NCBI GenBank assembly: GCA_017347465.1
Contig: AP021858.1
Coordinates: 1,630,472-1,694,471 of the forward strand
Source of the DNA: Candidatus Nitrosymbiomonas proteolyticus
GTDB taxonomy: Bacteria; Armatimonadota; Fimbriimonadia; Fimbriimonadales; Fimbriimonadaceae
Reading direction: 5' to 3'
DNA: 64,000 nt
Shown: positions 58,230-61,523 of the stretch, in pieces
How positions within the stretch are numbered: position 1 is the stretch's first letter
Layout of the letters: every line of letters starts with the position of its first letter
Program-made: the position numbers and the translations under genes
The notes under the pieces: model-generated
The model's input: only the letters and a program-made list of their open reading frames with translations
The model's database searches: none
Told to the model about the DNA's origin: nothing

Positions 58230-58305
58230 AGTACGGCAATGAGTCGCCCCTATCGAACGGGAGTTGAGTTCGGTCTGCCGGTTTTTCCACAAAATCAATG
58301 TTTTT

Positions 58306-58335
58306 TTCTCAAATTTGCGAAAGGTATCGTATAAT
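58306..58335 (+). promoter_or_regulatory. Promoter of the PEP-CTERM gene at 58417
   Basis: TTCTCA (58306-58311) and a perfect TATAAT (58330-58335) are 18 bp apart. A leader of about 75 nt carries AAAGGAG just before the ATG. Confidence 0.55.
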
Positions 58336-58416
58336 TACGTGGGCGCTCGCGGACGTCCAAATCTGGCTGTACTGCCAGGATACGCATTCCGCGCATTGTC
58401 TAAAGGAGATCTGAAT

Positions 58417-59037
58417 ATGATTCTGTTGGGTCGAAAGGCCGCGTTTGTCGCGTTTGCGTCCCTCATGGGCGTAGCTGCGAACGCGATTGTCTTCACTAAC
58501 GTAACCATCAAGTCGCCGCCGCTGTCGGACGGTTCGTCCTACAGCACAGCGGTCAACGCGATCACGTTCTTCGTTCCCAATGCTCTCGTCGGAGACGGGT
58601 TGCCCTTGCGCTTCGGCACGCTGAATATTCAGTACGATGCCGACTCGTCCGGCGAACTCATGGTCGCCGATGAAGTCGTTATCAGCATGGGGACGGGGAT
58701 ATTGGGTCGCGGGACCATCCTGTTCCGAGAGACCGTTCATGAACTCGACTCGATCGGAGCTGAAATCGGGGAGCCGATCGGTTCGTCGTACCACACGTTC
58801 GACGTGAACAGCAACCCGTTCTTCAGCGACACGATCGTGTTCTCAAGGGCTGTGACCCGATTCCGGGCGAAAAAGTCCTTCACGCTGAGCGCCCCCGATT
58901 CCGCGGATCCGAATGTAACGGACCTCGCGGCGGTCGCCTACGTGAACCAGAACATCCACCTCGTGCCCGAACCGGCGACGCTGGGGGCGTTGGCGCTGGG
59001 TGCGTTGGGTGTGCTCCGGCGACGGAACAAGAGATAA
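58417..59037 (+). CDS. PEP-CTERM secreted protein
   Basis: AAAGGAG sits 9 nt before the ATG. The signal peptide (AAFVAFASLMGVAANA) and terminal tag (VPEPATLGALALGALGVLRRRNKR) are complete. The 150-residue mature domain is beta-rich and lacks a recognised family. It is preceded by a sigma-70-type promoter at 58306-58335. The 160 bp after it (59041-59199) contain no feature I can support. Confidence 0.88.
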   Translation: MILLGRKAAFVAFASLMGVAANAIVFTNVTIKSPPLSDGSSYSTAVNAITFFVPNALVGDGLPLRFGTLNIQYDADSSGELMVADEVVISMGTGILGRGTILFRETVHELDSIGAEIGEPIGSSYHTFDVNSNPFFSDTIVFSRAVTRFRAKKSFTLSAPDSADPNVTDLAAVAYVNQNIHLVPEPATLGALALGALGVLRRRNKR

Positions 59038-59199: not shown

Positions 59200-60027
59200 C
59201 TAGGCGATCTTTCGCGCTTTTCCGCCCAGTATCGCGCGTAGCCGGTCAACCAAAGTCGGAGCAGTTCCCGAGTCTTCCGGACGCCTCTCCGCGCCGATCC
59301 CGAGCAAGTTCTCGGCGATTCTGCCCACGTCTCGCGAAGCTCCGCATTGGGGCTCGGCAAGCGCGAACGGTTGGCGGCGGCGGGCGCATCGAACCACAGT
59401 CGGGTCGTGCCGAACCCACCCGGCAAACTCCATCGACTTGCCCAGATATTGCTGGGCGACTTGGGAAAGCCGGTCGAAAACCAGCCGAGCGTGTTCCTCG
59501 CTTTCGGCGGCGTTCATGACCACTCGAACTCTTGCGGCCGGCTGCCGCGAAAACAGTGTCTTTGCAGTGGCATAGGCGTCCGTAATGCTCGAAGGGTCGG
59601 GAGTCACGACCAGCAGGACCTCGTCCGCTGCCTGCAAGAACGTCATTACGGAGTCGTCGATGCCCGCGCCCGTGTCAAAAATGAGGTAATCGGTCTCGCA
59701 GGCAAGGGTGTTGAGCTCCGAAAGGAATCGATCTAGCTGGGGGCCGGAAAGCTGCACGAGAGTCGACACCCCGGACCCGCCGGGAATGATTCGAATGCCT
59801 CCGGGCGCATCGAACAGGACCTCCGGAATCGTTCGCTCGCCCGAAACCACTTGCTCCAGCGTGAACCTCGGATTCACGCCCAGGATCACGTCGAGGTTCG
59901 CCAACCCCAAGTCGGCATCGAACACCACGACCTTGCGGTTCTTCGCGGCAAGCGTGATGGCGAGATTCGCCGAGAGACTCGACTTGCCGACGCCGCCCTT
60001 TCCGCTAGTTACCGCAATCACACGCAT
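59200..60027 (-). CDS. MinD/FlhG-like deviant Walker ATPase
   Basis: The deviant Walker A is KGGVGKSS (residues 10-17), followed by FDADLGLANLDVILG and the switch II region YLIFDTGAGID, with Gly-Ala rather than the usual PPG. A C-terminal extension (about 60 residues) is helical. The combination resembles FlhG/YlxH and MinD-type regulators that position flagella, pili or division. GGAGG lies 11-13 nt before the ATG. It starts 34 nt after the pseudokinase gene, so both are likely in one operon. Confidence 0.9.
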   Translation of the reverse strand: MRVIAVTSGKGGVGKSSLSANLAITLAAKNRKVVVFDADLGLANLDVILGVNPRFTLEQVVSGERTIPEVLFDAPGGIRIIPGGSGVSTLVQLSGPQLDRFLSELNTLACETDYLIFDTGAGIDDSVMTFLQAADEVLLVVTPDPSSITDAYATAKTLFSRQPAARVRVVMNAAESEEHARLVFDRLSQVAQQYLGKSMEFAGWVRHDPTVVRCARRRQPFALAEPQCGASRDVGRIAENLLGIGAERRPEDSGTAPTLVDRLRAILGGKARKIA

Positions 60028-60061: not shown

Positions 60062-61342
60062 CTAAGCCGCCTTACGGCCGAACAGCCCCTCAAGCCAGGA
60101 CCGTTTCTTCGTCGGCAGGGTTTCCACACTCCCCAATAGCGCAGTCTTGTCCGCCTGTTGCAGCGTCCCCAAATCGGGCGCATTCGCAAACGGCTTCGGC
60201 GCCCATGAAAAGCTTCTGAGCCTGCGGGCAACTTGGAGCGGACTGGCAAACGGCTCTTCGGTCCGGACTCCGATGCATCGGTCGATGACATCTTGCATAG
60301 CGGGCAACGTGTAGCTGCCGGTGGGTTGAGGGGCGTTAACCTGGCCCGCAAGGCAGTCCTTCATGAAGTGTCCCAATTCGTAAAGGTCCATCGAAACACC
60401 CGCCCGACTAGTTCCAAAGACCGCATAGGATGGCAAGGCCAGAGGGGCCAGCGAAGCGGCTCCATCGGCCTTGACCACCACGTTCTGCGGGGTGATGATT
60501 CCGCTGGATCGGGACCCGAACGTCAAAAACTCGATCGCCTCGGCGACCTGAATCGCGATGCGTGCAGTCTGAGCTACGTCGCGCGGACCGAGCTTGGCGA
60601 GGATTCGGTCGAGCGGCTCGCCCTCAAGCTTGTCCAAGACGAAATAGTCGAAGCTCGGAGTTGATACCCAGTCATGTACCGCGGCCACTCCGGGAACGCT
60701 GCGCTCCGCGGCCGTCCGAACGAGTTCGAACTGCTCCTCACGAGCTGGGGAATTGGCGGGGACTGCGATCAGGGAAACCCGTCGCCCGAACTTCTCATCC
60801 CAGCAATGAAGAACAGAGTTGTGCCCGCAGTGCCACCCAAGCTCCAAATTGCAGAATCTCGGCTCCAGGCCGGGGAATTCGCTTGCGTCGACCGACCGGG
60901 AGTCGCTCGCCAGCCCATAGGCCCTTCGAACGGCAGCTTCGATCTTGCTCGCCGTAGAGAGCAGGAGCCTCACGCGCTTGCCCGTGCGCTGGGTAATCGC
61001 GTCGGTAAGGTTGATATCGACAGGGTCGGAGACCACGCACTCCAGCGCATCCTCGTTGACTCGCAGAGGGAGAACGCCGCTCGCGTAGGCAAAATCGGCG
61101 TCGATCAAATCGATCGCCTCAGGCGAAGGCTCGAGTTGGAACTCTTCGGCGACCCGAAGCCCATATTGCTCGGCCAAGAACGACACGATTTGGTCCTCGG
61201 TCGTGTAACCGCGCTCGACTACGATCTCTCCGAGACGCCTGTGCGTCGATTCTTGCGCCGCCAAGGCAGCCATAAGCTGTAAGTTCGTGAGAATGCCGCT
61301 CTCGACCAACAGCTCGCCGAGCATCTGATAGCGTTGTTGCAT
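60062..61342 (-). CDS. MshEN domain fused to a protein-kinase-like (pseudokinase) domain
   Basis: Residues about 1-145 form the MshEN/T2SSE_N domain of GspE-like proteins: MLGELLVESGILTNLQLMAALAAQ, LGEIVVERGYTTEDQIVSFLAEQYGL, GVLPLRVNEDALECVVSDPVDI. Residues about 160-400 look like a Ser/Thr kinase fold (RRVSLIAVP as a VAIK-like strand, FDYFVLDKLEGEPLDRIL, then GIITPQNVVVKADGAASLAPLA). The catalytic Lys, the HRD aspartate and the DFG aspartate are all missing. A short tail (SWLEGLFGRKA) ends the protein. It probably acts as a c-di-GMP-sensing or scaffold factor. The start at 61342 has GAGG upstream. Confidence 0.75.
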   Translation of the reverse strand: MQQRYQMLGELLVESGILTNLQLMAALAAQESTHRRLGEIVVERGYTTEDQIVSFLAEQYGLRVAEEFQLEPSPEAIDLIDADFAYASGVLPLRVNEDALECVVSDPVDINLTDAITQRTGKRVRLLLSTASKIEAAVRRAYGLASDSRSVDASEFPGLEPRFCNLELGWHCGHNSVLHCWDEKFGRRVSLIAVPANSPAREEQFELVRTAAERSVPGVAAVHDWVSTPSFDYFVLDKLEGEPLDRILAKLGPRDVAQTARIAIQVAEAIEFLTFGSRSSGIITPQNVVVKADGAASLAPLALPSYAVFGTSRAGVSMDLYELGHFMKDCLAGQVNAPQPTGSYTLPAMQDVIDRCIGVRTEEPFASPLQVARRLRSFSWAPKPFANAPDLGTLQQADKTALLGSVETLPTKKRSWLEGLFGRKAA

Positions 61343-61447: not shown

Positions 61448-61523
61448 TGGCAGGGGCAGCAGGGCTCGAACCCGCGACCTTCGGTTTTGGAGACCGACGC
61501 TCTACCAACTGAGCTATACCCCT
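61448..61523 (-). tRNA. tRNA-Trp (CCA)
   Basis: The acceptor AGGGGTA pairs with TGCCCCT. The D-arm is AGCTCAGTTGGTAGAGC, the anticodon loop CTCCAAA gives CCA, the T-arm is GGGTTCGAGCCC, and CCA is encoded at the 3' end. Confidence 0.97.

Follow-up and report, generated by a model that had tools for sequence, protein, structure and literature searches.

An MshEN-pseudokinase protein paired with an FlhG-like ATPase in Armatimonadota, a candidate adaptor for flagellar placement

Introduction

The association of MshEN domains with Ser/Thr protein kinase domains was already listed by Wang et al. 2016 (PMC5013675), and the portion of that paper available describes no pseudokinase, paired ATPase or short form among such fusions. 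FlhG, an ATPase of the flagellar placement type, carries an N-terminal DQAxxLR helix (PMC12826062, in the text available), and its residues K177, F215 and one Arg are reported to be crucial for FliY binding; the accessible text of the paper concerned (PMC12327844) numbers this Arg as 277 in one place and gives the mutant as R207E in another.

Here we describe a protein, P1, and the ATPase encoded beside it, P2, both found in a stretch of 64,000 nucleotides (the window). P1 shares the MshEN domain with the PilB/GspE traffic ATPases, but the T2SSE ATPase domain of those proteins is missing. Like the partners of ParA/MinD ATPases, as the available parts of PMC10241942 present them, P1 is encoded by an adjacent gene and has a short motif outside its folded domains, the other parts of such partners being diverse; it is unlike them in that the motif is C-terminal where theirs are charged N-termini, and in carrying MshEN plus a pseudokinase. 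Literature searches, which covered few subscription journals, gave unrelated papers among the matches listed for MshEN with MinD and two papers that mention both MshEN and FlhG, once each; no pseudokinase was named together with c-di-GMP or MshEN among the matches listed.

Gene pair and domain layout

The features of the locus, in window coordinates, are as follows.

60062..61342, minus strand: P1, MshEN-pseudokinase protein of 426 aa with ATG start (from ORF, Pfam, NCBIfam and fold)
61166..61324, minus strand: two c-di-GMP motifs of 24 residues each in tandem, separated by 5 residues, P1 aa 7-59 (NF053729); motif I begins with Met, not Arg
60908..61165, minus strand: C-terminal MshEN subdomain, P1 aa 60-145 (Pfam PF05157)
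60197..60880, minus strand: pseudokinase domain, P1 aa 155-382; no beta-3 Lys, HRD Asp or DFG Asp
60125..60163, minus strand: conserved motif of D-R-x-x-L-L type, LQQADKTALLGSV, P1 aa 394-406; Lys replaces Arg in the window's copy
60065..60112, minus strand: basic/aromatic C-terminal tail, SWLEGLFGRKAA, P1 aa 411-426; candidate membrane anchor
59200..60027, minus strand: P2, FlhG/FleN-like ATPase of 275 aa; deviant Walker A KGGVGKS
59446..59562, minus strand: P2 aa 156-194, holding K156, R186 and Y194, equivalents of FlhG K177/R207/F215
59203..59259, minus strand: P2 C-terminal tail, aa 257-275, in the place of the FlhG membrane-targeting sequence
61448..61523, minus strand: tRNA-Trp, upstream of P1, neighbour only

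A first-pass annotation of this DNA had assigned the N-terminus of P1 to the MshEN class, found the usual ATPase missing and noted a MinD/FlhG-like ATPase 34 nt further on, and all three points were borne out. PF05157 matches P1 with E 2.1e-17 (63.3 bits against a curated cut-off of 23.1), the NCBIfam c-di-GMP motif NF053729 covers aa 8-59 (E 4.9e-18; 64.7 bits against a cut-off of 38), and a T2SSE ATPase domain is absent from the Pfam matches of P1. A 34 nt gap separates the P1 stop from the P2 start, and the best solved matches of P2 are FleN (188 bits) and FlhG (165), with E. coli MinD at 73.

The P1 tail is a possible membrane anchor. In a relative from outside the order (G208) a hydrophobic stretch resembling a transmembrane helix, judged by eye, occupies the same place; the hydrophobic moment (amphipathicity) of the long-form P1 tails is no higher than that of shuffles, and the same holds for the P2 tail, which is present.

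A PEP-CTERM protein (PF07589; window 58264-59037) adjoins the pair on the opposite strand.

Conservation of the pair

A search for the same pair in other Armatimonadota, proposed in the first-pass annotation, found a P2 homologue directly adjoining P1 on the same strand in 30/30 loci (L007-L036, the window's own included). P1 occurs in a long form, as in the window, and in a short form made of the MshEN domain, a linker and the C-terminal D-R-x-x-L-L motif, without a kinase; the motif at the C-terminus is common to both. Among 18 further stretches P2 adjoins P1 at nine of the 10 testable short-form loci, L168 being the single one without it, and adjoins all three divergent kinase-like relatives (3/3); not counted among the 10 are L171, L172, L175 and L176, which end at contig ends, and L173, a PilB-sized frame. 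A single peptide pattern, run against the genome collection and covering 80 loci of 133 relatives, gave at least seven long forms with P2 adjacent; at L136 in this set the P2-like match is just a weak one and lies on the other strand. Because the pair is nearly always adjacent, P1 is probably the ATPase's signal-sensing partner, not an enzyme.

Neighbouring genes were called mechanically in the window and in 20 further stretches, each spanning 7-19 kb about a homologue (L037-L056), and apart from the pair no gene recurs in more than 4 of these 21 stretches. Membership of the pair in a pilus operon was considered and rejected on this count.

One record, L059 (JADZEW010000035.1), is titled Methanoregulaceae archaeon; its P2 is near-identical to that of the Fimbriimonadaceae record L068, and it is probably mislabelled. 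At L188 and L189 (from the 1.5 Mb genomes G068 and G069) the gene preceding P2 encodes a protein of 396-443 aa, and the L188 product is Lys/Ala-rich and ends LTDRSALIDSYFDN.

A kinase fold without catalytic residues

Sequence searches match the kinase domain of P1 weakly (PknB_PASTA, E 5e-4; PknA, E 2e-5 with the domain alone). The structure model agrees with the kinase-like domain of the first-pass annotation and has a PknB-like fold: the AlphaFold model, built with 8 sequences, has pLDDT 74.5, Foldseek ranks PknB of M. tuberculosis first (E 5.1e-12), and VIA aligned residues 155-380 of the model with 2fum_C (Z 20.9, rmsd 3.0, 219 residues aligned). In the alignment to PknA, Ile takes the place of the beta-3 Lys, a shortened ...TPQN stands at the HRD loop, and DFG becomes PLA, so that the DFG Asp is Pro.

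Long-form P1 was found in 14/113 genomes of the order. The window's species is represented twice among these, and the 13-protein count used below leaves out its second genome; L008, 98% identical, is left out of the P1 alignments. The 12 others share 29-38% identity with the window's P1. The beta-3 Lys, the HRD Asp and the DFG Asp are each present in 0/13, and in 13/13 a Pro stands where the DFG Asp would be. Since these three residues are lost throughout, we class the domain as a pseudokinase, as the first-pass annotation had supposed. The HRD Asp is also missing from the three divergent kinase-like relatives that adjoin P2 homologues; one of these, G208, the one extra long relative that a phylum search found outside the order, retains the Lys.

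Comparison of the window with isolate H1_ARM1 (L057) gave 13 synonymous changes and one nonsynonymous change over pseudokinase aa 161-382, a dN/dS of 0.024; values for MshEN, the tail and P2 were 0.11, 0.41 and 0.16. The missing catalytic residues together with the dN/dS of 0.024 argue that the domain is, as far as its sequence tells, dead as an enzyme yet maintained under purifying selection.

c-di-GMP motif

The window's P1 keeps the key motif positions (one Leu of motif II being Ile) save for a Met at Arg1 of motif I, and the second isolate of the species likewise has Met there. Motif I opens with R or K in 12 of the 13 long forms and with M in the window's copy, and both motif glutamines are kept in 13/13. 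The window's genome has six GGDEF matches. In the accessible parts of the published work, Arg9 matters in MshE (PMC5013675), and Ser replacing the motif II Arg abolished binding by a PilF construct (PMC12002112). The long-form family is expected from its motifs to bind c-di-GMP; the window's copy, however, has Met for Arg1 of motif I, an Arg that is important in MshE, and its binding may be weak or lost. The c-di-GMP link drawn in the first-pass annotation is borne out as far as the MshEN domain goes, and is weakened by the Arg1 to Met change in the very copy from which it was drawn.

An FlhG-type ATPase and a FliM-like motif

P2 is of FlhG-type ancestry. It is like FlhG/FleN (PDB 4rz2 and 5j1j; PMC12327844 and PMC12826062, in the portions available) in sequence, Walker A, FliY-binding residues and position of the C-terminal tail, and unlike them in that it has no DQAxxLR helix, its genome has no FlhF, it lies away from flagellar genes and it is paired with P1. 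Its ATPase core begins at residue 2, where the N-terminal helix is missing. FlhG K177/R207/F215 were carried over to P2 K156/R186/Y194 by one common numbering offset, +8. At these positions the long-clade ATPases have K, R/K and F/Y in 14/14 each; short-form P2s have K in 24/24, F/Y in 24/24 and R/K in 2/24. Past the ATPase core, long-clade P2s have 25-32 residues, and short-form P2s have 7-14 (20/24) or 20-32 (4/24). In a tree of 58 ATPases, with L008, L025 and L029 left out of both the set and the tree, the long-form P2s cluster (13 rows, 99/92; 14 rows, 91/73, when one P2 without P1 is included), as do most short-form P2s (24 rows, 100/99) and the ATPases adjoining EIDALL-bearing proteins (98/85).

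At the level of residue pattern the D-R-x-x-L-L motif of P1 appears to resemble the EIDAL helix of FliM. With FliM/FliY (PMC6946799, in the text available) it shares the helix pattern D/E-x-x-x-L-L, the EIDALL copies in related partners being closer; it differs in that Ile is replaced by Arg or Lys in most P1s, and no SPOA domain is among the P1 Pfam matches. Of eight FliM N-termini from these genomes, seven follow the pattern LSQ-x-E-I-x-x-L-L and the eighth is cut short by a contig end. Against the FliM profile the tail motif of the window's P1 scores 12.0, reached by 0.01 of shuffles, and the best matches of the other 12 long forms are reached by 0.065-0.91 of shuffles. The tail motif is the best FliM-like segment in 4/13 long and 11/16 short P1s, most single p values being weak.

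Six partner proteins of related ATPases (L194, L195, L199, L200, L201 and L205) bear FliM-like EIDALL motifs, from one to several per protein. Where the full protein was examined (L194, L201 and L205) the EIDALL is followed by an MshEN-like C-terminal segment, detected by Pfam in L194 only, that is without the c-di-GMP motif region. Fold prediction of the P1 tail joined to P2 gave the tail a pLDDT of about 40-55, with no docking seen. As that fold is not confident, docking of the D-R-x-x-L-L helix on the FliY-binding surface of P2 is a proposal.

Flagellar genes and FlhF

FliF was found in 92/113 genomes of the order, the window's included; there FliF and FliG lie together about 0.3 Mb from the pair, and FliM is present. 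P2 (E 1e-30 or better) was found in 55/113. FliF is present in 54/55 genomes with P2 against 38/58 without (Fisher 3.8e-6, not corrected for phylogeny), and by genus in 31/31 with P2 against 12/16 without (p 0.010, not corrected for descent). The sole P2 genome without FliF is G040, 88% complete.

FlhF gave nothing above the curated cut-off in the window's genome (G000). It is above cut-off in 18/113 genomes, with P2 co-present in one (G112), and is nearly confined to family f3 and G112 and nearly exclusive of P2. The 92 FliF-positive genomes divide into 1 with both P2 and FlhF, 53 with P2 only, 13 with FlhF only and 25 with neither. In four stretches around FlhF (L215-L218) no FlhG-like ORF was found close to it. 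Flagellar genes were sought beside P2 relatives, and none was found save the EIDALL-bearing partner proteins.

Alternative readings and proposed role

Our preferred reading, held with confidence slightly above even, is that P1 is a non-catalytic adaptor of c-di-GMP type that docks on the FlhG-like P2, probably for flagellar placement or assembly, in flagellated Armatimonadota that are mostly without FlhF. Its computed basis is the conserved pair, the dead kinase fold under purifying selection, the FlhG ancestry of P2 and the kept FliY-binding residues. Weighing against it are the low-confidence fold of the joined tail, the mostly weak FliM-like scores of the tail motif, the distance of the pair from flagellar genes, the missing DQAxxLR helix of P2, the Met at Arg1, the tail amphipathicity no higher than in shuffles, the 25 FliF-positive genomes with neither P2 nor FlhF, and a FliF co-occurrence that is uncorrected for phylogeny.

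The first-pass annotation had instead pointed to pilus or secretion placement. On that account the pair would act on type II secretion or on type IV pili, placing or gating them: P1 would compete with or recruit PilB-type ATPases, and P2 would position these. MshEN is common in PilB/GspE ATPases and the window's genome has five MshEN-T2SSE proteins, but MshEN matches occur in 112/113 genomes of the order, mostly in PilB-sized frames, and being near-universal, pili therefore do not account for the patchy P2. At one locus, L190 of G014, the genes after a P2 relative are one of PilB type, with MshEN and T2SSE, and one of 302 aa; across the 21 stretches, however, no third gene passes four occurrences, and P2 is FlhG-type and tracks FliF. 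Because the ATPase type, the FliF co-occurrence, the FliM-like motifs and the FlhF avoidance favour flagella, pilus or secretion placement is not the best reading, and we consider it unlikely.

We regard as quite improbable that P2 is a MinD-like division-site ATPase or one for other cargo, with P1 as its regulator and unrelated to flagella. The best NCBIfam model for P2 is minD_arch, at 141.7 bits below its cut-off of 201.75, but solved FlhG/FleN far outscore E. coli MinD; FliM-type motifs occur in partners of related ATPases, and FliF accompanies P2 in all genomes except G040. Finally, some other pseudokinases bind nucleotide or phosphorylate by an unusual mechanism and P1 keeps the kinase fold, but the loss of all three catalytic residues in every long form, the invariant Pro and the shortened catalytic loop make such activity in P1 highly improbable.

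In the preferred adaptor reading, the MshEN domain of P1 would read c-di-GMP, the pseudokinase would relay or scaffold, and the C-terminal D-R-x-x-L-L helix would dock on P2 as the N-termini of FliM/FliY do on FlhG. The C-terminal tails would keep the P1/P2 complex at the membrane, and c-di-GMP would gate whether P2 delivers or withholds C-ring parts, which would set flagellar number, placement or assembly. The further claim, that in one order FlhF has been replaced by a flagellar-placement switch in which a c-di-GMP-gated, FliM-mimicking pseudokinase serves as adaptor of an FlhG-type ATPase, is tentative and on the doubtful side.

If true, a dead kinase would tie c-di-GMP directly to a placement ATPase of FlhG type, which the searched literature was not found to describe, and a c-di-GMP-gated pseudokinase placement switch would be of a kind not described there. 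It would also give a selected function to a bacterial pseudokinase. P1 would be a named partner in an ATPase family where many members are called orphans (PMC10241942, in the parts available). It also becomes testable what replaces FlhF in those flagellated bacteria that lack it.

As a minor observation on both proteins, P2 ends in Ala/Ser in 26/27 and long P1 in 13/13 across L007-L036 (window positions 59203 and 60065), against 48/250 control ORFs. These ends resemble a C-terminal degron.
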